Assembly (NCBI RefSeq): GCF_003144095.1
Contig: NZ_NSKH01000023.1
Location: 358,964-422,963, forward strand
DNA from: Streptomyces sp. ICBB 8177
GTDB lineage: Bacteria > Actinomycetota > Actinomycetes > Streptomycetales > Streptomycetaceae
DNA: 64,000 nt
Direction: 5' to 3'
Position numbers and translations under genes: made by a program. The stretch's first letter is position 1. The number at the start of each line of letters is the position of its first letter. Below, in pieces: positions 10,687 through 23,384 of the stretch. The notes under the pieces are model-generated. The model did not search any database. It saw nothing but the letters and a program-made list of their open reading frames with translations, and was not told where the DNA came from.

Positions 10687-10771
10687 GTCCGGGTGGCGGA
10701 ATGGCAGACGCGCTAGCTTGAGGTGCTAGTGCCCTTTATCGGGCGTGGGGGTTCAAGTCCCCCCTCGGACA
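10687..10771 (+). tRNA. tRNA-Leu (anticodon GAG)
   Basis: Complete class II cloverleaf. The acceptor stem 10687-10693 pairs with 10764-10770 with one G-T wobble, the anticodon stem CTAGC/GCTAG encloses loop TTGAGGT with anticodon GAG at 10720-10722, the long variable arm TGCCC-TTTAT-GGGCG is typical of tRNA-Leu, and the T arm carries GTTCAAGTC. CCA is not encoded, as is usual in Streptomyces. It reads CUC leucine codons. Confidence 0.97.
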
Positions 10772-11512: not shown

Positions 11513-12451
11513 CTACCCGGCCGGCGTGTAGTGGGAGGCGTCGCCCGTGATGGCGTGGCTGCGCCTTCCATCGATGGCGACCGGGACGTCGCCCGCCACG
11601 GTCACGCGGTGCAGGCGGCGGGGACGGTCGTCGTAGTTGTCGATGGCGTAGTGCTGGGTGATGCGGTTGTCGAACAGCAGCAGCTGGTTCGGGGACCAGC
11701 GCCACCGCAGGACGTTCTCCGGGCGTGTCACGTACGACTGGAGCAGGTCCAGGATCGTGCGGGACTCGGCCTTCGACAACCCGACGACCCGATGGGCGAA
11801 ACCGCCGATGAACAGGCCGCGTTCGCCGGTGAGTGGATGCACCCGCACCACCGGGTGCGCGGTGCGGAACGTGATCGACGTGAACTGCGCGCGCCGCGCC
11901 GCGCCTTCGTCGTCCACGTCCTCCTCCGGCACCGCGTAGTCGTAGTCGTTGGTGTGCTCGGCCCACAGCGTGTCCGCGAGGTCCCGCAGCGGGGCGGGCA
12001 GGTCGCGGTAGCCGCCGGCCGCGTCGGCGACCAGGGTCTCGCCGCCGTACGGCGGGATCACGATGCTGCGCAACGTGCTCGCCTGCGGCGGATTGACCAC
12101 GAACGTGACGTCCGTGTGCCAGTGGTTGGACCGGCCGCGTTCGCTGTCCACGGGCAGTACGTTCGGTGCGCCCTCGACCGCCGGGACCGTGGGGTGCGCG
12201 GTCGTCAGCTCGCCGAAGTAGCGGGCGAAGCGCTGCTGCCCCTCGTCGTCCAGGTCGACGTCGTCGAAGACGAGGGCCTTGTGCTCGTTCAACACCGTGC
12301 GCAGATCGGCGACGATGTCAGGGGCGAGCTGCCGGCCGAGGTCGACGCCCGAGACCCGGGCGCCGATGCGGGCGGTGAGCTTCTCGACGCGTAGGCCGGT
12401 CGCGGTCCGCCGCGCGGGGGCGGGGGCGGAGGTGGGGAGGACGGTGGTCAT
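11513..12451 (-). CDS. TauD/TfdA-family Fe(II)/2-oxoglutarate dioxygenase
   Basis: Non-haem iron dioxygenase of 312 residues, in the family of taurine dioxygenase (TauD) and alkylsulfatase (AtsK). It would hydroxylate a carbon next to a hetero-atom group using 2-oxoglutarate and O2, for example to release sulfite. The iron facial triad is visible as NHWHTDVTF (His and Asp) near residue 110-115 and QHYAIDNY (distal His) near 265, followed by RRLHRVT with the 2-oxoglutarate-binding Arg. It is the last gene of the minus-strand operon that begins under a SAM-IV riboswitch, 27 bp after the binding-protein gene. This setting argues for an organosulfur substrate, but taurine itself is not shown. Confidence 0.9.
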   Translation of the reverse strand: MTTVLPTSAPAPARRTATGLRVEKLTARIGARVSGVDLGRQLAPDIVADLRTVLNEHKALVFDDVDLDDEGQQRFARYFGELTTAHPTVPAVEGAPNVLPVDSERGRSNHWHTDVTFVVNPPQASTLRSIVIPPYGGETLVADAAGGYRDLPAPLRDLADTLWAEHTNDYDYAVPEEDVDDEGAARRAQFTSITFRTAHPVVRVHPLTGERGLFIGGFAHRVVGLSKAESRTILDLLQSYVTRPENVLRWRWSPNQLLLFDNRITQHYAIDNYDDRPRRLHRVTVAGDVPVAIDGRRSHAITGDASHYTPAG

Positions 12452-12478: not shown

Positions 12479-13483
12479 TCAGAACGTGGCGGGCGGGTTG
12501 AGCCGGGAGGCGGGGATGCCCGTGCCGGGGACACCCCACTTGGCGAGGATCTCCTTGTACGTGCCGTCGGCGATCAGCTTGTTGACGGCGTCGCTGAGCG
12601 CCCTGCCGAGCGGCGACCCCTTGCGGGTCACGAAGCCGACCGGCGTCGTGCTGATCTGGCCGAGGAACTTCGTGCCGGCGATGTGCGCCGCGTCGTACTT
12701 CAGGCCCAGCGTGGGGCCGAAGTAGACGTCCACCGTGCCGTTGGCCAGACCGAGGAAGATCGGTGCGGTGTCGGTGAAGTACCGCACGCGGTACGGCTTG
12801 CGGCCCGCCGCCGCGCACTTGGCGGCACCGCTGGTCAGGATCTGCTGGAACGTCGAACCGGGACTCGTGGCGACGGTCAGCCCGCACAGGTCGGTGAGCC
12901 TGGTGACCGACGAGATCGTGGTGTCCCGGCCGCCGAGGAACGCCTGGCCGTCATTGAGGTACGTGGCGAAGTCCACCACCTTCTCGCGTGCCGCGGTCAC
13001 CCCGAAGTTGGCCTGGCCGACGTCGAACCGGCCGTTCTGCACACCGGGGATGATGGTGGGGAACGTCCCGTAGCCCACCTTCCAGCTGACTCCCAGCACC
13101 TTGGCGACCGCGTCGCGCAGGTCCACGTCGAGGCCGACGGTGCTGCCGTCCGGCGCCTGGCCCGCGTGCGGCAGCCCGGAGACGCCGACCGCCTGGACGG
13201 TGCCCAGGGACAGGGCACCGCTGTCCCGTACGGCGGCGGGCAGTTCGGCTTTGAGGGCCGGGTCCGCGCGGATGCCGGAGACGACGTCCCGGGTGGGGAT
13301 CGTGGTCGAACTCCCGCTTCCTGATGATGACTTGGCCGGCGAGTCAGAGTCGGAGCTTGAACCGCTGCCGCAGGCGGCGAGCAGGGTGAGGCCGGTGACC
13401 GCGGCGATCAGCGAGGCGGCCGGACGTGGGATGCGGTGATGTCGACGGTGGCCGTGGCGTTGGGAGGAGCCGGCGGTGGTCAC
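12479..13483 (-). CDS. ABC transporter substrate-binding lipoprotein (SBP_bac_3, amino-acid type)
   Basis: Extracytoplasmic binding protein tethered to the membrane. The 334-aa protein has a signal peptide ending in the lipobox LLAAC at about residues 34-38, a Ser/Gly/Asp-rich linker (GSGSSSDSDSPAKSSS), then a family 3 solute-binding domain with VDLRDAVAKVLG, DVGQANFGVTAAREKVVDFA and DLCGLTVATSPGSTFQQIL. This family binds polar amino acids and cystine-like compounds. Its partners are the ATPase and permease genes directly upstream. Given the operon content, the likely cargo is a sulfur-containing amino acid derivative; that is inference. Confidence 0.92.
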   Translation of the reverse strand: MTTAGSSQRHGHRRHHRIPRPAASLIAAVTGLTLLAACGSGSSSDSDSPAKSSSGSGSSTTIPTRDVVSGIRADPALKAELPAAVRDSGALSLGTVQAVGVSGLPHAGQAPDGSTVGLDVDLRDAVAKVLGVSWKVGYGTFPTIIPGVQNGRFDVGQANFGVTAAREKVVDFATYLNDGQAFLGGRDTTISSVTRLTDLCGLTVATSPGSTFQQILTSGAAKCAAAGRKPYRVRYFTDTAPIFLGLANGTVDVYFGPTLGLKYDAAHIAGTKFLGQISTTPVGFVTRKGSPLGRALSDAVNKLIADGTYKEILAKWGVPGTGIPASRLNPPATF

Positions 13484-13509: not shown

Positions 13510-13574
13510 GGAACGGCGCCCGCGCCTCGTGTCCACGGCGCCCGTGGGTCTCACGGAACGGCGCCCACGCCTCA
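13510..13574. repeat. 19-bp direct repeat pair
   Basis: GGAACGGCGCCC(G/A)CGCCTC occurs at 13510-13528 and 13556-13574 with one mismatch and 46-bp spacing; a shorter related ACGGCGCCCGTG lies between. The second copy includes the stop codon of the ATPase gene. It looks like a small local duplication in the gap between the ATPase and binding-protein genes; no function is evident. Confidence 0.6.
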
Positions 13575-14345
13575 CAGGACTGCCGCGAAGAAGGCCCGGG
13601 CGCGTTCGTGGCGTGGGGCGGTCAGGACCGCCTCCGGCGGACCGGACTCGACGACCCGGCCCCCGTCGAGGAAGACGACCGTGTCGGCGACCTCGCGGGC
13701 GAAGCCGATCTCGTGGGTGACCACGATCATGGTCATCCCGCTCACCGCGAGGTCCCGGACCACCGCCAGCACCTCGCCGACGAGTTCGGGGTCCAGCGCG
13801 CTGGTCGGCTCGTCGAAGAGCATCAGCCGCGGCTGCATCGCCAACGCCCGGGCGATCGCCACCCGTTGCTGCTGCCCGCCCGACAACTGCCCGGGAAGGG
13901 CGTCCTCGCGTCCGGCGAGGCCCACCCGGGCCAGCAGCTCGCGCGCGCGTTGCGCCGCCCGCTTCCTCGGCGTGCCGCGTACGGAGACGGGCGCCTCGGT
14001 GACGTTCTCGATCACCGTCAGGTGCGGGAAGAGGTTGAACTGCTGGAAGACCATGCCGATCCGGGACCGCTGCCTCATGATTTGCCGCGGTCGCAGTTCG
14101 TGCAGCCTTCCGCCGCTCGCCCGGTAGCCGATGATCTCGCCGGCCAGCTCCACGAAGCCGGCGTCCGGCTTCTCCAGGTGGTTGACGCAGCGCAGCAGCG
14201 TGGACTTGCCGGAACCCGAGGGGCCGAGCAGGACCGTCACCTCGCCCTCGCGCACGTCCAGGTCGACCCCGTCCAGCACCACCTGACCGCCGAAGCTCTT
14301 GCGCAGGCCCCGTACGCGTACCAACGGACGCTCGCCGCCGGTCAC
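13572..14345 (-). CDS. Amino-acid-type ABC transporter ATP-binding protein
   Basis: Energy subunit of a polar amino acid/cystine-class importer, 257 residues. Walker A GPSGSGKST at about residue 40, Q-loop VFQQFNLFPHLTV, signature LSGGQQQRVAIARAL, Walker B LMLFDEPTSALDPE and H-loop VTHEIGFA are all intact. The start is GTG overlapping the upstream permease stop (GTGA), showing translational coupling. It belongs with the permease at 14342-15364, the lipoprotein binding protein downstream and probably the second permease near 21 kb. Confidence 0.93.
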   Translation of the reverse strand: MTGGERPLVRVRGLRKSFGGQVVLDGVDLDVREGEVTVLLGPSGSGKSTLLRCVNHLEKPDAGFVELAGEIIGYRASGGRLHELRPRQIMRQRSRIGMVFQQFNLFPHLTVIENVTEAPVSVRGTPRKRAAQRARELLARVGLAGREDALPGQLSGGQQQRVAIARALAMQPRLMLFDEPTSALDPELVGEVLAVVRDLAVSGMTMIVVTHEIGFAREVADTVVFLDGGRVVESGPPEAVLTAPRHERARAFFAAVL

Positions 14346-15364
14346 GACAGGCCCGCCAGGTCGCGCCGGGTGGCGCCGAAGAGCGAGAGGCCGGCCCGTG
14401 CCGTCTCCCACACACCGCGTCCCGTCCGTGCGGCACTCCCGCCGCTGCCGGATGTGCGGCCGCGTGCGTAGTGGCGTTCCACGTAGTGCTGCCCGATCGA
14501 CAGCAGCGTGGTGAGGACGACGTACCAGATCGTCGCCACCACAAGCAGCGGGACGATCAGGAAGTTCTGGTTGTAGATGAGCTGCGCCGAGTACAGCAGG
14601 TCCTGCACGGCGATGACGCTCACGATCGAGGTGGCCTTCAGCAGGCCGATCAGCAGGTTGCCCGAGGCGGGCACGATCGCGGGCATCGCCTGCGGCAGCA
14701 CGATCCGGCGGAAGACCCGCCCCCGGCCCAGGCCGAGCGCCTGGGCCGCCTCGGTCTGACCGCGGTCGACGGACAGGATGCCGCCCCGGACGATCTCGGC
14801 GGAGAAGGCGGCCACGTCCAGGGTCAGTCCCACGTACGCGGCGAGCACACCACTGAACATGTGGGCCGTGCGGAACGTGACGAACTCCCGGCCGAACGGA
14901 ACGCCCAGCGACAACCGCGGGTACAGGGAGGCGAGTTCGTACCAGAAGAGCAGCTGCACCAGCGGCGGCACCGAGCGGACGATCCACACGTAGCCGAAGC
15001 TGAGCGCGCGCAGGACGCGGTTGCCGGACAAGCGCATGGCGGCGATTCCCACGCCCAGCAGGTAGCCGCTCACCATGACCGCGGCGGTCAGCCACAGGGT
15101 GAGCGCGAGGCCGTGCAGGATCGGGGCGCGGGTGAAGTACCGGTCCACCACGTCCCACTGGAAGCGGTCGTTGGTGAGCAGCGTGTGCACGAGCATCGCC
15201 AACAGCACCAGGGACGCCACCGCCGACACCCACTGCCCCGGCTTGCGCGACGGCACAAGCCGCGCGGCGAGCAACTGCTCGTCGCACGGCCGCCGGTCGA
15301 GCGCGGGCGGGGGTGCCCCCGCCGGTTCCGCCTCCTCGGGCGTGCGCGACGGTACGGACGTCAT
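14342..15364 (-). CDS. Amino-acid-type ABC transporter permease
   Basis: Membrane subunit of the HisM/TcyL class, 340 residues. The hydrophobic region runs from about residue 50 to 300. The cytoplasmic EAA loop that docks the ATPase is EAAQALGLGRGRVFRRIVLPQA, read here as its core EAAQALGLG...IVLPQA. The family motif IVRSVPPLVQLLFWYE is also present. A Pro-rich N-terminal tail of about 45 residues and a Gly/Ser/Arg-rich C-terminal tail flank it. Start ATG overlaps the stop of the upstream monooxygenase (ATGA), with GGAG 6 nt upstream. It is co-translated with the ATPase. Confidence 0.92.
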   Translation of the reverse strand: MTSVPSRTPEEAEPAGAPPPALDRRPCDEQLLAARLVPSRKPGQWVSAVASLVLLAMLVHTLLTNDRFQWDVVDRYFTRAPILHGLALTLWLTAAVMVSGYLLGVGIAAMRLSGNRVLRALSFGYVWIVRSVPPLVQLLFWYELASLYPRLSLGVPFGREFVTFRTAHMFSGVLAAYVGLTLDVAAFSAEIVRGGILSVDRGQTEAAQALGLGRGRVFRRIVLPQAMPAIVPASGNLLIGLLKATSIVSVIAVQDLLYSAQLIYNQNFLIVPLLVVATIWYVVLTTLLSIGQHYVERHYARGRTSGSGGSAARTGRGVWETARAGLSLFGATRRDLAGLS

Positions 15365-16488
15365 CGCCGGCTCCATTCCTCCGCCAGGAGCCGGTACGAG
15401 CGGACCCGGTCGGCGTGGTCGTGGGTGATCGTGGTGACGATCAACTCGTCGGCCTCGGTGGCCTCCTGAAGCTGCTCCAGCTGGTCGGCCACGCGTGCGG
15501 GCGATCCCACGAACTGCGTCTCCACGCGGTCGGCGACCAGCGCCCGGTCCGCGTCGGTCCACACGTGCGCCCGCGCCTCGTCCGGAGTGGGGAACGGGAT
15601 CGCGCCCTCGGCGCTGCGGATGCCGCGCACCCACAGGCCGTAGCCGGTGGCGAGTTCACGGGCGGTCGCGTCGTCCTCGGCCACGACCACGTCGGCGGAG
15701 ACGCCGACGTAGGGCTTGGCGAGGTCGTCCGACGGCTCGAACCCGGCCCGGTAGCCCTCGGCGGCCTCCAGCACGGTGGCCGGGCTGACGTGGTAGTTCG
15801 CCGCGAACCGCAGGCCGTTGCGTCCGGCGACCTGGGCGCTCGTGCCACCGCTGCTGCCCAGGATCCACACCTGGACGTCCGCTCCCTCGCCCGGCACGGC
15901 GTGCGCCTCGACGCCGTCGTCCGAGCGGTACGTGCCGCGCAGCAGCGCCAGGACGTCAGCGACCTGCTCGCCGTACTCCTGCGGTTCGGCGTTCGGCTGG
16001 CGCAGCAGGCGCTGGTGGAGCGCGAAGCGCGGGGATCCGAGCAGGTGCTCGAAGGAGAAACGCGGCGGTATCCGCAGCCCGTTGGGGGTACGGCCGTCGA
16101 CGACCGGTGTGGTCGTCGGCGCGGGGCCGCCCGGCCGAGCCGGTGGGCGCCCGCCCGAGCGGCCGAGGCCGAGATCGAGCCGTCCCGGGTAGAGCGCGTC
16201 GATCAGCCCGAACTCCTCCACCGACGACAGCGCGGTGCGGTGGCCCAGCTGGAGGGCGCCGGAGCCCAGCCGGATCGTGGACGTCGCGGCGGCCGCCAGC
16301 GCCAGCACGACGGCGGGCGACGTCCCGGCGACGCCCGGGTTGAGGTGGTGTTCGGCGAACCAGTAGCGCGCGTAGCCGAACTCCTCGGCGCGCCGGGCGA
16401 GGTCGATGGAGTCGCGCAGCGCGTCGGCGGCGGTCGCGCCGGAGGGGATCGGGACCAGGTCGAGGATCCCGAGGGGTGTGTCCGACAT
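15361..16488 (-). CDS. LLM-class flavin-dependent oxidoreductase (YtmO-like)
   Basis: Bacterial luciferase-like monooxygenase of 375 residues using reduced FMN and O2. Family marks: LGILDLVPIPSG at the N-terminus, RYWFAEHHLNPGVAGTSPAV (the AEHH motif typical of the YtmO/CmoO-like group), IRLGSGALQLGHRTALSSVEEF, and PYVGVSAD in the C-terminal half. Proteins of this subgroup occur in sulfur-scavenging operons such as Bacillus ytm. GAGGAG lies 9 nt before the ATG. Upstream of that Shine-Dalgarno is a run of heptanucleotide repeats. The stop overlaps the permease start. The reaction, probably C-S bond oxidation, is inferred from context. Confidence 0.88.
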   Translation of the reverse strand: MSDTPLGILDLVPIPSGATAADALRDSIDLARRAEEFGYARYWFAEHHLNPGVAGTSPAVVLALAAAATSTIRLGSGALQLGHRTALSSVEEFGLIDALYPGRLDLGLGRSGGRPPARPGGPAPTTTPVVDGRTPNGLRIPPRFSFEHLLGSPRFALHQRLLRQPNAEPQEYGEQVADVLALLRGTYRSDDGVEAHAVPGEGADVQVWILGSSGGTSAQVAGRNGLRFAANYHVSPATVLEAAEGYRAGFEPSDDLAKPYVGVSADVVVAEDDATARELATGYGLWVRGIRSAEGAIPFPTPDEARAHVWTDADRALVADRVETQFVGSPARVADQLEQLQEATEADELIVTTITHDHADRVRSYRLLAEEWSRR

Positions 16489-16567: not shown

Positions 16568-17641
16568 TCAGTCGTCGGCGGGGGCGGGCGACGCCGGGCC
16601 CCAGACGAACGGAGGATCGGGGATCTCGCGGCGTAGCACGGGCGCGACGTCGGACTGGAACAGCTCCAGCGAGGCGCGGTGCTCCTTCTTGGGCAGTCCG
16701 CCCGCGTCGGCGCTCAGATGGAGCACGGTGTGGCCGAGCGCCTCGTGGTAGCGGTGGACCTTCTCGGCGATCTGCTGCGGACTGCCGATCAGCGCCGAAC
16801 TGCGTTCCACGAAGTCCTCCAGCGTGGGGAAGACCGGTTCCAGGCCCAGTTGACGCTGGAACGCCAGTCGCGCGGCGAACACCGGCCGGTAGGCGGCGAG
16901 GGCCTCCTGCGAGGTGCGGGCCGCGTAGTACCCGGCGGTGCCCGCGCCGACGACCGCCAGGGCCGGGTCGTGGCGGTAGTGCTCCCACCGCTCCCGGTAG
17001 TGGCGCACGAGGTCGGCGTAAGGCTCGATGGGATTGGTGACGTTGGCGGAGAACAGCGGGTCGCCGTGTCGGGCCGCCAGGTCGGCGGACTCACGGCTGG
17101 TGGCGCTGCCGTGCCACACCCGGACCGGCCGCTGCCGGGGTCGCGGCCACACCTGGGCATCGACCAACGCCGGGCGGAAGCGCGGCGAGGCGGTGACCTT
17201 CTCCTCCCGCCAGATCCGGCGCAGGAGTTCGTACCCCTCGGCGTTGCGTTCCCACTGGTCCTCGGGCGTGACGTGGAACAGCTCGCGCTGCGCCGCGCCG
17301 TTGCCCTTACCGATGATCAGGTCCAGGCGCCCGCCGGACAGGTGGTCCAGGGTCGCGTAGTCCTCATAGGCGCGCACCGGGTCCAGCAGGCTCAGCGTGG
17401 TGACCCCGGTGAACAGCCGGATGCGCGAGGTCAGCGCGGCGATGTGGCTGAGCACCACGGGCGGCGAGGAGGACAGGAACGGCCACTCGTGCCGCTCGCC
17501 CACCGCGAAGCCGTCGAAGCCGAGCCGCTCCGCCTCCAGCGCGCTGTCTACCACCTCGCTGAAGCGCTCCGCGGTGGAGGTGCGCTCGCCGGTGACCGGG
17601 TCGGGCGCGTTGGCGATCAGGGTGAGCGCGAGGAACCTCAC
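16568..17641 (-). CDS. LLM-class flavin-dependent oxidoreductase
   Basis: Second luciferase-like flavin monooxygenase, 357 residues, of a different subgroup from its neighbour. Seen: FDGFAVGERHEWPFLSSSP, LFTGVTTLSLLDPVRAYEDY, TLDHLSGGRLDLIIGKGNG, and a C-terminal QIAEKVHRYHEALGHTVLHL. GTG start at 17641 (VRFLALTLIA) overlaps the stop of the upstream monooxygenase (GTGA), so the two are translationally coupled; the long frame upstream of it is the shadow of that gene. Probably acts on an organosulfur intermediate; this is inferred only from the operon. The needed FMN reductase is not obvious in the window. Confidence 0.88.
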   Translation of the reverse strand: MRFLALTLIANAPDPVTGERTSTAERFSEVVDSALEAERLGFDGFAVGERHEWPFLSSSPPVVLSHIAALTSRIRLFTGVTTLSLLDPVRAYEDYATLDHLSGGRLDLIIGKGNGAAQRELFHVTPEDQWERNAEGYELLRRIWREEKVTASPRFRPALVDAQVWPRPRQRPVRVWHGSATSRESADLAARHGDPLFSANVTNPIEPYADLVRHYRERWEHYRHDPALAVVGAGTAGYYAARTSQEALAAYRPVFAARLAFQRQLGLEPVFPTLEDFVERSSALIGSPQQIAEKVHRYHEALGHTVLHLSADAGGLPKKEHRASLELFQSDVAPVLRREIPDPPFVWGPASPAPADD

Positions 17642-19113
17642 GACGCCGCCCGCTCGTCGACCGACTCCGTCCCCGAAGCCGTGTCCGCGACGGGTTCCGC
17701 GTCCGGGTGGGCCAGTCCGAGGTGGTCGCGCAGCGTCGTGCCCTCGTACTCGGTCCGGAACACCCCGCGTTCCTGGAGCAGCGGCACCACGGTGTCGGCG
17801 AACTCGTCCAGGCCGCCCGGGGTGATGTGGGGGACCAGGATGAAGCCGTCGGCCGCGTCGGCCTGCACGAACGCGTCGATGGTGGCGGCGACGGTGGCGG
17901 CCGATCCCACGAACGACTGGCGGCCGGTCTTGTCGATGATCAGCTCGCGGATCGACAGCTTGTGTGCCTCGGCGTACTCCCGCCACTCGCGCGCGGTGGC
18001 GAACGGGTCGCGGAACATCCGGACGCCGGCCCGGCCGCGGGCGATGGTGTGCTCCGTGAGGTCCGGGTCGACGTCGGGTAGCGGTCCGTCCGGGTCGTAC
18101 GAGGACAGGTCGCGGTTCCACACCTGTTCCAGGTAATGGATCGCGGTCTGACCGCTGACCTGCTGCCGCCGCACCTCGTGGGCGAGTTCGCGCGCCTCGG
18201 CGTCGGTGTCGCCGAGCACGAAGGTCGCCGCGGGCAGGATGAGCAGCTGGTCGTGGGTGCGGCCGTGGCGGGCCAGGCGGCGCTTGACGTCGGCGTAGAA
18301 CTCGCGGCCCGCGTCCAGCGTGCTGTGCCGGCTGAAGATGGCGTCCGCGTCGGCGGCGGCGAACTCGCGGCCCTCGTCGGAGTCCCCGGCCTGGAAGACG
18401 ACCGGCCGGCCCTGCGGAGCGCGCGGGACGTCGAACCGCCCGGCGATGTCGAAGTGCTGACCGGTGTGCCGGAACGCGCCGGCCCTGGCGTCGCGCAGGA
18501 AGACACCGGCGGCCTGGTCGGCGGCGATCTCGTCGCCCTTCCAGGAGTCGAACAGCTCGTTGGCGGTGGCCAGGAACTCCCGCGCCCGCGAGTAGCGCTC
18601 CTCGCGCGGGAGGAAGCCGCCGCGCCGGAAGTTCTCGCCGGTGAAGGCGTCCCAGGAGGTGACCACGTTCCACGCGGAACGCCCGCCCGACAGGTGGTCG
18701 AGGCTGGCGAACTGGCGGGCCACCTCGTACGGCTCGTTGAACGTGGAGTTGATGGTGCCGGTCAGGCCGATGCGGTCGGTGACGGCGGCGAGCGCGGCCA
18801 GCACGGTGAAGGTGTCGGGCCGTCCCACCACATCCAAGTCGTAGATCTTCCCGCCCTGTTCGCGCAGCCGCAGGCCCTCGGCGAGGAAGAGGAAGTCGAA
18901 CTTCGCGCGTTCGGCGGTGCGCGCGAAGTGGGCGAAGGAACTGAACTCGATGTGGCTTCCGGCTCTCGGGTCACTCCACACGGTGGTGTTGTTGACGCCG
19001 GGGAAGTGCGCGGCGAGGTGGATCTGCTTGGCGGGCTTGCCGGGCGTGACGGGCTTGCCAGGTGTGGCGGGCGTGCCGGTGGTGGCGGGCTTGCCGGTGG
19101 GCGGCTTGCTCAT
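17638..19113 (-). CDS. NtaA/SnaA/DmoA-family FMN-dependent monooxygenase (YtnJ-like)
   Basis: FMN-dependent monooxygenase of the NtaA/SnaA/DszA/DmoA group, 491 residues. Typical marks: IHLAAHFPGVNNTTVWSDP near the start, FARTAERAKFDFLFLAEGL, DTFTVLAALAAVTDRIGL, GTINSTFNEPYEVARQFASL, SGGRSAWNVVTSWD and VVFQAGDSDEGREFAA. This is the class of YtnJ/CmoJ, which cleaves S-alkyl cysteine derivatives, and of DszA and DmoA, so sulfur chemistry is plausible. The first 30 residues are an unusual Gly-Lys-Pro/Thr-Pro-rich repeat tail not present in the family core. The stop overlaps the next gene's GTG start. Confidence 0.9.
   Translation of the reverse strand: MSKPPTGKPATTGTPATPGKPVTPGKPAKQIHLAAHFPGVNNTTVWSDPRAGSHIEFSSFAHFARTAERAKFDFLFLAEGLRLREQGGKIYDLDVVGRPDTFTVLAALAAVTDRIGLTGTINSTFNEPYEVARQFASLDHLSGGRSAWNVVTSWDAFTGENFRRGGFLPREERYSRAREFLATANELFDSWKGDEIAADQAAGVFLRDARAGAFRHTGQHFDIAGRFDVPRAPQGRPVVFQAGDSDEGREFAAADADAIFSRHSTLDAGREFYADVKRRLARHGRTHDQLLILPAATFVLGDTDAEARELAHEVRRQQVSGQTAIHYLEQVWNRDLSSYDPDGPLPDVDPDLTEHTIARGRAGVRMFRDPFATAREWREYAEAHKLSIRELIIDKTGRQSFVGSAATVAATIDAFVQADAADGFILVPHITPGGLDEFADTVVPLLQERGVFRTEYEGTTLRDHLGLAHPDAEPVADTASGTESVDERAAS
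19026..19104. repeat. Imperfect in-gene tandem repeats coding a GKP/TPG-rich N-terminal tail
   Basis: Within the start of the NtaA-like gene the sequence GGCGGGCTTGCCGG and close variants recur four to five times at 15-18 bp intervals. They encode the repeated T-P-G-K-P/A-T units of residues about 5-29. Confidence 0.65.
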
Positions 19114-19134: not shown

Positions 19135-20340
19135 TCAGGCGGTGGCGGCGTAGCGGCTCGCGGGGCGGGCGAGGCCGAGCAGACCGCGCAGGGTGCCGGC
19201 CTCGTAGGCGCGGCGGAACAGGTTCCGGCGCTGGAGCTCCGGCACCAGGCCACGGGTGATCCGTTCCAGGTCGTGACCGGCGACCGCGGGGCGCAGCCGG
19301 AATCCGGACAGCCCCGCCGCACTCAACTCCTCCAGCACGTCGGCCAGTTGGCCGGGCGTGCCGGTGAAGACGCGGGCGTCGGAGGTGTACGGCGTGCCCG
19401 CGAGGTCGTCCAGCCGTGCCCGGCGCGCGGTCGCCGCCTGGGCGTCGTCGTCCAGGAACACCACGAGGTCGCCGAAGACGTGCAGGGGATCGTTCGCCCT
19501 TCCCGCCGCCGCCCGTTCGGCGTGCACGGCCTCGACGGCCGCCCTGGCCGCGGCGGTGTCGTGCGGGGTGACGAAGCCGACGTCGGCGGAGCGGCCCACC
19601 AGCCGGTACGCGGCGGGACCGTGCGCCAGCGCGGCGACGACCGGCTGGCCCTGCGGCGGGCGCGGGGTGATGGACGGGCCCTTGACGCTGAACCGGGCGC
19701 CCTCGAAGTCGATGTAGTGCAGCTTGTCGCGGTCGACGAAGCGCCCGGTGGCCGCGTCGCGGATCTCCGCATCATCCTCCCAGCTGTCCCACAGCCGCCG
19801 GACCACCTCGACGTGGTCGGCCGCCTCGTTCAGCAGTTCGTCCACCAACTGCCGGGGAGGCGGGCTCCCTTCGTCGGAGCGGGGGAAGGTGCGGCGGCCG
19901 AAGTGCGCGGCTTCGTGCGGTCGCGCCGACACCAGGATCCGCAGTCCGGCGCGCCCCGAGCTGACGTAGTCGAGGGTGGCGACCGCCTTGGAGACGTGGA
20001 ACGGCTCGGTGTGCGTGGCCACGACGGTGGGGACCAGCCCGATGTGGTGGGTCAGCGGCGCGATCCGGGCGGCGACCAGGACGGCGTCCAGCCGTCCGCG
20101 TACCTGGTCGGTGCGCTCGTCCGGTTCTGTGGGATGCGAGGACTGAAGGCCCAGCCCGTCCTCGAAGGTCACGAAGTCGAGCAGGCCGCGTTCGGCCTCG
20201 CCGACCAGGTCGGCCCAGTAGGCGGCGGTGAACAGGTCGTTCGGGCGCGCGCCGGGTTCGCGCCAGGCGGCGGGATGCCAGCCCGTGCCGTCGAGTGCGA
20301 CGGCGAGGTGCAGCGGGGAGCGGGATGCGGATGCGGACAC
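19135..20340 (-). CDS. LLM-class flavin-dependent oxidoreductase
   Basis: Luciferase-like family protein of 401 residues. Seen: LHLAVALDGTGWHPAAWRE, WADLVGEAERGLLDFVTFEDG, HIGLVPTVVATHTEPFHVSK, TLDYVSSGRAGLRILVSARP and QPVVAALAHGPAAYRLVGRS. It belongs to the long-form group near NtaA-type enzymes found in sulfur scavenging operons. GTG start with AGGAAGG about 10 nt upstream. It lies directly after a permease gene that has no in-frame stop before this start, and is followed after 21 bp by the NtaA-like gene. This is the first of the four flavin enzymes in transcription order. Confidence 0.87.
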   Translation of the reverse strand: MSASASRSPLHLAVALDGTGWHPAAWREPGARPNDLFTAAYWADLVGEAERGLLDFVTFEDGLGLQSSHPTEPDERTDQVRGRLDAVLVAARIAPLTHHIGLVPTVVATHTEPFHVSKAVATLDYVSSGRAGLRILVSARPHEAAHFGRRTFPRSDEGSPPPRQLVDELLNEAADHVEVVRRLWDSWEDDAEIRDAATGRFVDRDKLHYIDFEGARFSVKGPSITPRPPQGQPVVAALAHGPAAYRLVGRSADVGFVTPHDTAAARAAVEAVHAERAAAGRANDPLHVFGDLVVFLDDDAQAATARRARLDDLAGTPYTSDARVFTGTPGQLADVLEELSAAGLSGFRLRPAVAGHDLERITRGLVPELQRRNLFRRAYEAGTLRGLLGLARPASRYAATA

Positions 20341-21290
20341 GGAGGGGCTGCCTTCCTGATCGGCCGTGTGTGGTCGCCTGACCGGTGGCTCGGGGCTCCG
20401 GCGGCACGGGAAGGAACTGGACGACGGACACGACGCTGGTGTGGACCACGTACCAGGCGGTGGCGGCCAGCAGCAGCGGCACGATGTCGCCCGGGTAGGT
20501 GCTGCCCATGCTCTGCACCGAGCCGAACAGGTCGAGCAGCGAGACGTAGAAGACCAGCGAGGTGCTCTTGACCAGGCCGATCAACTGGTTGACGTAGGAC
20601 GGCACGATGGCGCGCAGGGCCTGGGGGAAGACGATCCGGCCGAACTGGTACCCCTTCGGCAGACCGAGCGCCGCGGCGGCCTCGTGCCGGCCCTGGTCCA
20701 CCGACAGGATGCCGGCGCGCACCACTTCGGCGGCGTAGGCGGCCTCGTTGAGGCTCAGCCCGACGACCGCGATCACCAGGTCACTGGCGAGCCGCGACTC
20801 GTCGAACCGCACGAACGCGGGGCCGAACGGGATGCCGAGGCTGAGGGTGTGGTAAGGCGCGCTGAAGTTGTAGAGGAACAACAGCACGACGATCAGCGGC
20901 ACCGAGCGGAAGAGCCAGACGTAGGTCCAACTCGCCGCCCGCAGAGCGGGGTTGGCGGACAGCCTGGCCAGCGCCAGGGCGATGCCGCCGAGCAGTCCGA
21001 GCACGGCGCTGAGCGCGGTCACCTCCAGGGTGATGAGCAGGCCGTTGAGGATCACCGGGCGGACCGACCAGTAGGCGAAGCGGTCCCACGCGAAGAAGCG
21101 GTTGGTCACCAGGCCGTGCAGGACCTGCGCGACCAGCACCAGGACGACGGCCGTGCTGATCCAGCGGCCGGGGTGCCGCCGGGGCAGGACGCGCGGTGGC
21201 GGCGTGGCAACGGCGACGAGGGCCGGCGGGCCCGGATCGGCCTGCGAGGCCGTGCCCGGGTGGCGCGGCGGTGATCAGGGGTTCGGTCAT
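20341..21290 (-). pseudogene. Amino-acid-type ABC transporter permease, apparently frameshifted
   Basis: Second membrane subunit of the importer. The conserved body reads in one frame from about 21260 down to 20390 and contains TYVWLFRSVPLIVVLLFLYN, the EAA loop (EAAAALGLPKGYQFGRIV, VFPQALRAIVPSYVNQ) and VKSTSLVFYVSLLDLFGSV. The natural ATG start at 21290 (MTEPLITAA, preceded by GGGAG) is in another frame; the body frame has a TGA at 21275-21277 and no ATG or GTG until 21139, which lies inside TM1. One extra base between about 21277 and 21241 explains this. At the other end the body frame has no stop before the next gene's start and stays open to 19772, suggesting a second lesion. It may be a sequencing error or real decay. 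Confidence 0.65.
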
Positions 21291-21606: not shown

Positions 21607-21750
21607 TCAGCGCCGCGGGGCGGCGGGGAGTCCGGCGGCGGTACACAGGGCGCTGCTGACCCGCAGCAGGTCGACGCAGCGGTTGGCTACGAGGTGTGCG
21701 GAGATCCGGCCGTGGCGCCGCCGCGCGGTCGCTCCCGGTCCTGTCTCCAT
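21607..21750 (-). CDS. Putative sulfur-responsive leader peptide (47 aa)
   Basis: Short ORF located between a SAM-IV riboswitch and the sulfur operon on the minus strand. The C-terminal half carries LVANRCVDLLRVSSALC, matching the pattern of actinobacterial leader peptides upstream of sulfur-assimilation genes (R-x-H-x-DL-x-RV-x-SALC). Two Cys codons lie in the conserved segment, so ribosome stalling at low cysteine could control the downstream operon. The start ATG (METGPG) is preceded only by GGTGACGGTG, a weak Shine-Dalgarno; other starts upstream in the same frame are possible. The role is inferred from motif and position; the plus-strand leader at 22235 is its counterpart. Confidence 0.7.
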   Translation of the reverse strand: METGPGATARRRHGRISAHLVANRCVDLLRVSSALCTAAGLPAAPRR

Positions 21751-21808
21751 CACCGTCACCGCCACCCGTCCGCCCTCGCGGGCCTCGCGCTTACCGAGAG
21801 TCTTCGGT

Positions 21809-21890
21809 CCGGTCGTCACCTGGAGCACACCACCGCGGAGCGAGGGTTGCCGGTCTGCGGGCCAGGGCCTGTCGCCGACACTCATGACCG
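21809..21890 (-). ncRNA. SAM-IV riboswitch (minus-strand operon)
   Basis: Reading the minus strand: CGGTCATGAGTGTC at the 5' end, CCCTGGCCCGCAGACCGGCA in the middle followed by ACCC, then TGTGCTCCAGGTGACGACCG at the 3' end. This matches the SAM-IV consensus as I know it (GGTCATGAG... CCGGCAACCC... GGTGCCCCGGGTGACGACC). The P1 stem CGGTC/GACCG closes it. It begins about 5 nt after the predicted transcription start and precedes the leader peptide and the organosulfur operon, so high S-adenosylmethionine should shut the operon down. Confidence 0.88.
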
Positions 21891-21901
21891 TTGTGGGCCG
21901 T

Positions 21902-21931
21902 AACGTAGGCAGGGCGCCGAACGAATGTCAA
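21902..21931 (-). promoter_or_regulatory. Promoter of the minus-strand sulfur operon
   Basis: On the minus strand TTGACA (21931-21926) and TACGTT (21907-21902) are separated by 18 bp, close to the vegetative (HrdB-type) consensus. The predicted start near 21895 puts the SAM-IV aptamer at the very 5' end of the RNA. Confidence 0.75.
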
Positions 21932-22016
21932 TGCGCCGGCGCCGTCCACCACACGCTCCCGGCCGCCTCGCCGCGCGGCCCGGTGGCCGATGTCGTCTCG
22001 GTCCTCGGAAGGCTTC

Positions 22017-22045
22017 TTGACGCCCCCAGGGGGCACGGCCACACT
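22017..22045 (+). promoter_or_regulatory. Promoter of the plus-strand riboswitch/leader/GST unit
   Basis: TTGACG (22017-22022) is followed after 17 bp by CACACT (22040-22045). The -10 is weak, but the predicted start near 22052 again places the SAM-IV aptamer at the RNA 5' end, mirroring the divergent side. Confidence 0.55.
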
Positions 22046-22053
22046 CGTGGACA

Positions 22054-22165
22054 CGGTCATGATTGTCAGCGCCGGCGTCGCGGGAGCCCCGCGGCGGCGG
22101 TCACCGGCCCCGGCCCGCTGACAGGCAACCCTTCCACCGCGACGGGGTGCCCCGGGTGACGACCG
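22054..22165 (+). ncRNA. SAM-IV riboswitch (plus strand)
   Basis: Starts CGGTCATGATTGTCAGCG and contains CCCCGGCCCGCTGACAGGCA then ACCC, then ACGGGGTGCCCCGGGTGACG and GACCG, close to the SAM-IV consensus. The P1 stem CGGTC (22054-22058) pairs with GACCG (22161-22165); the TGTCAGCG/CGCTGACA helix is perfect. It has a longer GC-rich insertion between these than the minus-strand copy. It precedes a leader peptide and the GST-like gene. Confidence 0.92.
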
Positions 22166-22234
22166 GGTCCCGTCGGCGCGGCGGGGCAAGCGCGGTCTCG
22201 CGTCCCCGCGAGCCCGTGGGAGGGACCGGTGGAG

Positions 22235-22309
22235 ATGTCCAGGATCCTGACCAGAAGGTTGCACATCGATCTGCTGCGGGTGTGCAGCGCCTACGACGAG
22301 GCGGCCTGA
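22235..22309 (+). CDS. Putative sulfur-responsive leader peptide (24 aa)
   Basis: A 24-codon ORF reading MSRILTRRLHIDLLRVCSAY and four more residues (DEAA). The RRLHIDLLRVCSA core is the actinobacterial leader-peptide signature seen upstream of sulfur genes, with one Cys codon in the conserved position. GGAGGG lies about 13 nt and GGTGGAG immediately upstream of the ATG. It sits 70 bp after the plus-strand SAM-IV riboswitch and 233 bp before the GST-like gene. A hairpin with arms GCGGGC/GCCCGC (22336-22341 and 22357-22362) just after it might act as an attenuator. Function is inferred. Confidence 0.78.
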   Translation: MSRILTRRLHIDLLRVCSAYDEAA

Positions 22310-22541: not shown

Positions 22542-23384
22542 ATGTCCCATACCGTTCCCGGCTGTTCGGCGCCCTCTCGCAACCTCCAACTCGCCCCGGT
22601 TGGCACCGCGTTGACGGAAGGCGCGGCGCCCGAGCGGTTCCGTGCCCGGATCGGCGACCTGCGGGCGCGCGGCTTCTACCCGGCGCCGCACCGCTACCAC
22701 CTGTACCTGGAGCAGGACTGCCCCCGCTCGCTGCGCGTGTCGATCACCCTGGCGCTGCTGGGCCTCCAGGACGTGGTCGGCGTCACCGTGCTGTCGTCGA
22801 GCGACGAGGGGGCTGAGGCGCTGCGCCGGGCCTACGACGCCACCTGGTACCGCTACCGGGGCCCGCTCACCGTCCCCGCGCTGTGCGACCAGTGGACCGG
22901 CCGTGTCGTGAGCAACCACACGCCCGACATCCTCCGCGACCTGGCCGAGCGCCTCGGGTCCCAAGGCCCGCACCCATCAACGGAGTTGCGCCCTGTGGCG
23001 CTCGCCGCACGCATCGACGCCTTCCGCGAGCTCCTGGACGAGGAGATCGCGTCGGCGCCGGCCCTGCCGGGGGAGCGGGCCGCGGCGCTGGACCGGCTCG
23101 ACCGGCGGCTGGCCGGTCAACCGTACGCTCTGGGCGCGGAGTTGACCGCCGCCGACATCGACCTCTGGGTGGCCCTCCTCCACCTGGACTCGCAGCTGCC
23201 CGGCGCCGACGAGCCTGACGGTCGCCATCCGCACCTGTCGTCTTACGTGCGACGTCTGTCGGCGCACCCGGCGTTCGCGCAGGCGTACCGTCAGTCCAGT
23301 CCGGCCAGGAGCTCCTTGAGGAACGGCACGGTGCGGTCCGGCTGCTCGGCCGTCGCGCACAGCCGGTCCATCACCGCCATGTAG
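22542..23384 (+). CDS. Glutathione S-transferase family protein, glutathionyl-hydroquinone reductase (ECM4/YqjG)-like
   Basis: Thioredoxin-fold plus C-terminal all-alpha GST domain, 280 residues. The N-terminal part matches the Xi-class pattern: RFRARIGDLRARGFYPAPHR, YHLYLEQDCPRS at the active site, LLGLQDVVGVTVLSS, and TVPALCDQWTGRVVSNHTPD. The usual CPW(A/T) active site is CPRS here, keeping the Cys but not the Trp. The helical domain follows at about 150-260 (YALGAELTAADIDLWVALLH). ATG has GGAG 7 nt upstream. Actinomycetes make mycothiol instead of glutathione, so the co-substrate is unclear. Its last 94 bp overlap the convergent XRE gene. The SAM-IV/leader control upstream ties it to sulfur metabolism. 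Confidence 0.82.
   Translation: MSHTVPGCSAPSRNLQLAPVGTALTEGAAPERFRARIGDLRARGFYPAPHRYHLYLEQDCPRSLRVSITLALLGLQDVVGVTVLSSSDEGAEALRRAYDATWYRYRGPLTVPALCDQWTGRVVSNHTPDILRDLAERLGSQGPHPSTELRPVALAARIDAFRELLDEEIASAPALPGERAAALDRLDRRLAGQPYALGAELTAADIDLWVALLHLDSQLPGADEPDGRHPHLSSYVRRLSAHPAFAQAYRQSSPARSSLRNGTVRSGCSAVAHSRSITAM

Follow-up and report, generated by a model that had tools for sequence, protein, structure and literature searches.

The mgtA 5′ UTR combines a Mg2+-responsive leader with the proline-rich mgtL peptide. In Mycobacterium tuberculosis, the pe20 Mbox controls a conserved upstream ORF (uORF), with Rho-dependent termination, as tested experimentally (PMC12810186), and B12 riboswitches occur with uORFs before metE and ppe2 (PMC11260477). 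Cysteine-responsive polycysteine short ORFs lie before mycobacterial sulfur genes (Canestrari 2020, as cited in PMC13236596), and a SAM-IV riboswitch stands before a cysteine desulfurase gene in S. lividans (PMC8079986). We characterized a divergent region of Streptomyces sp. ICBB 8177, within a 64-kb stretch of DNA (hereafter, the window), in which two SAM-IV aptamers are arranged head to head and each is followed by a small leader ORF. This paired design is recurrent and strongly conserved, and its individual parts are already known; in the searchable literature (most subscription papers were beyond reach), we saw no account of SAM-IV ahead of such leaders or of divergent SAM-IV pairs.

Aptamers, promoters and leader genes of the divergent region

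An Rfam covariance search of the window returned two riboswitches, both SAM-IV (RF00634) and head to head, scoring 83.2 bits (E 2.4e-13) at 21782–21889 on the minus strand and 65.1 bits (E 2.9e-9) at 22055–22198 on the plus strand, where the P2 hairpin is enlarged. Both copies span model positions 1–116 and exceed the cut-off (gathering score) of 38 bits. The sole other Rfam match in the window was a tRNA gene (10687–10771, plus strand). A first-pass annotation, made from the letters alone, had claimed two SAM-IV aptamers, to be checked against the covariance model, and the search bears this out; the extents given there (21809–21890 and 22054–22165) were correct in location but left out the 3′ P4/pseudoknot part. 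The blocks GGCAACCC and GGTGACGACCG are common to both aptamers, as had been claimed. Inspection by eye revealed a putative 3′ pseudoknot with the P3 loop in each copy (ACCGCG/CGCGGU in the plus-strand copy and CGCG/CGCG in the minus-strand copy). On the minus strand, a small G+C hairpin (GCCC GCGA GGGC, 21772–21783) lies just downstream of the pseudoknot strand and upstream of the leader Shine–Dalgarno (SD) sequence, and by inspection its stem is kept with varied sequence in the alignment of this class (A2; the plus-strand class is alignment A1). Besides this pair, the host genome (6.3 Mb) has a single SAM-IV site, for a total of three, located upstream of a gene that, read by eye, resembles a cysteine desulfurase.

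Two divergent promoters, whose positions were read from the sequence, precede the aptamers as had been proposed: one on the minus strand (21902–21931; −35 TTGACA at 21931–21926, 18-nt spacer, −10 TACGTT at 21907–21902) and one on the plus strand (22017–22045; −35 TTGACG at 22017–22022, 17-nt spacer, −10 CACACT at 22040–22045). Both are kept in relatives. All 17 sequences of the plus-strand class (hereafter, the GST class) have TTGACN, a spacer of 17–18 nt and NANACT, followed by 8–10 nt to the aptamer, and all 16 sequences of the minus-strand class (the permease class) have TTGAC[AG] at an equal position and a −10-like box 12–14 nt before the aptamer. Given this near-fixed spacing (8–14 nt from the −10 box to the aptamer), transcription is expected to start at the aptamer or a few nucleotides before it, consistent with the earlier placement of each aptamer at a predicted RNA 5′ end. 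Promoter conservation thus places the aptamers in a 5′ leader near the predicted transcription start of genes that HMM matches relate to sulfur.

Behind each aptamer lies a small ORF, again as the first-pass annotation had it. The minus-strand ORF (21607–21750) encodes 47 amino acids (METGPGATARRRHGRISAHLVANRCVDLLRVSSALCTAAGLPAAPRR, containing RCVDLLRVSSALC), with a canonical UGU Cys codon at 21645–21643 and an SD sequence GGTGAC at 21755–21760; the plus-strand ORF (22235–22309) encodes 24 amino acids (MSRILTRRLHIDLLRVCSAYDEAA), with a TGC Cys codon directly after LLRV, a residue other than Cys at the canonical UGU position and an SD sequence GGTGG at 22228–22232. Leader starts were placed at the alignment position where ATG, GTG and TTG replace one another, with GGTGA or GGTGG, conserved in both classes, just upstream. 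Measured from where the aptamer ends through the leader start codon, the spacing is 33–40 nt, with a single exception (locus L093). Across the shared motif region, the synonymous fraction of codon differences among relatives was 0.68 (GST class) and 0.56 (permease class) in the leader frame versus 0.07–0.18 in the other two frames, which rules out chance small ORFs; the leaders are real genes, selected as peptides. A fresh inverted duplication of one aptamer is likewise ruled out, given that promoter, aptamer shape and leader are class-specific on each side and conserved across genomes.

The structural genes behind the leaders are of sulfur-metabolism type on both sides by HMM. On the minus strand, the leader is followed by an apparently decayed amino-acid-type ABC permease gene (perm1, 20402–21290), two genes for LLM flavin monooxygenases of the NtaA/DmoA type (19135–20340, just under the model cut-off, and 17638–19113, above the cut-off of the family), an LLM-class (Bac_luciferase) oxidoreductase (16568–17641), an LLM-class oxidoreductase of the MsnO8 family (15361–16488), an ABC transporter permease (14342–15364) and ATPase (13572–14339), an extracellular solute-binding protein of family 3 (12479–13483) and a TauD/TfdA-type dioxygenase (11513–12451). 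The perm1 gene differs from its counterpart in Streptantibioticus parmotrematis by a 1-nt frame difference near the start and a replaced C terminus. In relatives, perm1 is followed by ATPase and binding-protein genes that are missing here, and together these differences suggest that DNA was deleted and that the gene has decayed; the frame change could alternatively be a sequencing error. On the plus strand, the leader is followed by a gene for a GST-like protein (22542–23384; GST_N_2 weak, GST_C_2), which adjoins the same leader in relatives. The 3′ end of this gene overlaps that of a minus-strand XRE-type regulator gene by about 90 bp (23291–23384), and a similar overlap is found in S. parmotrematis (L050).

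Recurrence of the paired design in the family

Within the bacterial family, 294 of 299 genomes carry SAM-IV. A census of the 40 genomes with at least three SAM-IV sites identified 14 head-to-head SAM-IV pairs in 13 genomes, or 15 with the window, a lower bound given that pairs were sought in genomes with at least three sites. A leader ORF (LLR- or LQR-type) is present on both sides in 12 of the 15 pairs (L036, L037, L039–L047 and the window); re-reading of the loci showed that LQR-type leaders occur on the monooxygenase side. One pair (L049) has one leader and one degenerate leader, and two (L038 and L048) have no leader ORF and stand directly before unrelated short genes. The leader-bearing pairs are flanked by one common set of genes whose order varies: those for LLM monooxygenases, two ABC transporters (amino-acid type) and a GST-like protein. 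The design, which the first-pass annotation had called unusual, is therefore not peculiar to one divergent region. In one genome (G140), three SAM-IV aptamers lie inside 1.6 kb (L037, 8027–9622), with a leader ORF behind each.

Possible readings of the two-layer 5′ leaders

SAM-IV and the leader together seem to read sulfur status in two ways. On the basis of this anatomy and of tested actinobacterial analogues (PMC12810186 and PMC11260477), we favour, with moderate confidence, a model in which both halves function as two-layer gates for sulfur sufficiency, each inside one 5′ leader. The layout runs from the promoter through SAM-IV, an SD-initiated leader ORF about 35 nt further on and a C-rich untranslated spacer to sulfur-scavenging genes. 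SAM binding may alter access to the leader translation start, as suggested by the position of the aptamer 33–40 nt before the ATG and by a GST-side pseudoknot strand that could pair 5′ of the SD sequence. On the permease side, when cysteine is scarce, a ribosome slowed at the UGU codon in the HxDLLRVxSALC chain would keep the downstream RNA expressing; otherwise, the untranslated C-rich spacer would permit early (probably Rho-type) termination or stay translationally shut. The operons would thus be fully on only when SAM and cysteine are both low. A more specific version, which we hold only tentatively, is that a SAM riboswitch gating a cysteine-responsive arrest peptide forms a SAM-and-cysteine AND gate, placed back to back, with UGU as the sensor, across Streptomyces-like bacteria.

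Several features of the RNA bear on these steps. The post-leader spacers are C-rich; on the permease side, C makes up 49% and G 28%, at the 97th percentile of the window, whose own sequence rather than other 5′ UTRs was the benchmark. By eye, the stretch between leader and gene showed no intrinsic terminator, and a C-rich spacer of this kind fits, without showing, Rho-type termination. On the GST side, inspection suggests that the pseudoknot strand may compete with a GGGACC-like element upstream of the leader SD sequence, although the competing helix fits only about 11 of 16 sequences; on the permease side, no covariation-supported switch was found, and none comparable to that of the GST side. 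Two further candidates were rejected: a pairing predicted by RNAalifold between the aptamer 5′ strand and the region near the leader SD sequence is broken in several sequences and has little covariation, and masking of the SD sequence of the GST gene by an upstream CUCUC, visible by eye in the window, is not conserved.

Codon choice bears on whether cysteine is decoded. The canonical Cys of HxDLLRVxSALC is UGU in all 26 SAM-IV-linked leaders that have Cys there and in all 23 permease-class leaders, two sets that overlap and consist of non-independent relatives, so that no probability is attached to these larger counts; it is also UGU in all eight host-genome leaders without SAM-IV. By comparison, the UGU background in genes is about 11% (9 of 81 codons), and Cys codons elsewhere in the leader peptides show mixed usage. 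The minus-strand leader groups with the sulfur-regulon leader set, whose canonical Cys is invariably UGU. It is possible, and we think somewhat improbable, that the leader is instead a nascent-chain arrest peptide in which HIDLLRV senses and Cys (or another residue) merely completes the arrest site. The approximately ten residues before Cys are conserved as amino acids with synonymous drift, and GST-class leaders retain the motif without the canonical Cys, as would be expected of such a peptide, but the invariant, rare UGU argues for decoding at that codon.

The two layers are separable. The host genome has at least eight additional leaders with this type of motif, all of them lacking SAM-IV, and the genes behind SAM-IV-free leaders encode, as read by eye, sulfite reductase, a CysM-like protein, a sulfurtransferase, an SsuC-like permease, FMN reductase, cysteine dioxygenase and arylsulfotransferase. 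Six of the SAM-IV-free host leaders (L058, L060, L062, L063, L064 and L066) begin 6–7 nt past a −10-like box, and their mRNAs may thus be leaderless. Many relatives are aptamer-free at the GST and permease loci, where promoter and leader are mostly retained. In S. parmotrematis, the nearest relative, the permease-side promoter and GGTCATGAG are retained, and a search relaxed to E 10 detected no SAM-IV on that strand. Given that promoter and leader persist where the aptamer is absent, it is the leader that stays constant and SAM-IV that is removable. This modularity could also mean that the layers act independently, with SAM-IV alone and a separate leader-peptide cysteine attenuator, derived from leader-only ancestors, remaining uncoupled; leader-only and SAM-IV-only loci both occur in the host genome, and similar leaders occur with or without an aptamer. 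We consider such independence unlikely, given that the aptamer lies directly 5′ of the leader SD sequence at a near-constant distance, for which coupling via leader translation is the simpler reading.

Within the gate model, the two sides probably differ in the role of the canonical Cys codon. On the GST side, the canonical Cys is replaced (by Tyr in the window copy); among 24 leaders of the class, 16 have TGC four codons before the canonical position, three have Cys one codon before it and five have no Cys at all, as is also the case for L047. A Cys-codon sensor can therefore not be general on this side, and the earlier proposal of probable cysteine sensing through leader translation is partly supported: it gains support on the minus strand, where the canonical Cys is always UGU, and not on the plus strand, where the canonical codon is lost and some relatives are Cys-free. 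Although this loss of Cys, complete in some relatives including L047, could make the GST-side leader a non-sensing relic of an operon under SAM control alone, this is very unlikely because LTRR.HIDLLRV is nearly invariant among 24 GST-class relatives, is strongly selected in frame and persists in loci without SAM-IV (L095–L104). The GST-side leader probably relies on the nascent-chain motif common to both sides and makes no use of the canonical Cys codon.

If the gate model is true, the region would offer a compact natural RNA circuit in which two sulfur metabolites are integrated. Leader peptides and the expression platforms of riboswitches have received little study in this bacterial group. 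The invariant UGU codon provides a sharp single-codon prediction, and the presence or absence of the aptamer before a conserved promoter and leader provides natural single- and double-layer versions for comparison.

Comparison with known systems

The window aptamers match SAM-IV (RF00634) over its full length on both strands, carry its core sequence blocks and, like it, lie in 5′ leaders of sulfur genes. They differ in that two copies stand head to head, each followed directly by a conserved leader ORF instead of a structural gene, and in the enlarged P2 of the plus-strand copy. The leaders share the HxDLxRVxSxxC-type motif of NCBIfam NF042934 (cis_reg_atten, 'putative leader peptide'), whose leaders lie upstream of sulfur genes elsewhere in the host genome, but are preceded by SAM-IV and, on the GST side, lack the terminal Cys. 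With scores of 25.4 bits (plus strand) and 17.9 bits (minus strand), both below the curated cut-off of 27 that is reached at seven other host-genome sites, they are related to NF042934 by motif and are not filed as members.

Like the mgtA leader, in which an ion-responsive leader and a leader peptide share one 5′ UTR, each half combines two elements, although the signals of mgtA are different and no divergent pair is present there. The pe20 Mbox of M. tuberculosis is similar in that a riboswitch directly controls a conserved small uORF ahead of an operon, with a different aptamer, ligand and peptide and no divergent pair (PMC12810186). The B12 riboswitches of the same organism likewise show a riboswitch and a translated uORF modulating a gene in an actinobacterium, but respond to another ligand, and their uORF is no sulfur or cysteine sensor (PMC11260477). 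The mycobacterial polycysteine ORFs, as described in the citing paper (PMC13236596), are also short upstream ORFs with Cys codons ahead of sulfur genes; theirs are leaderless runs of Cys codons, whereas the leader described here has a single UGU after a conserved 10-residue motif, is SD-led and lies behind an aptamer.
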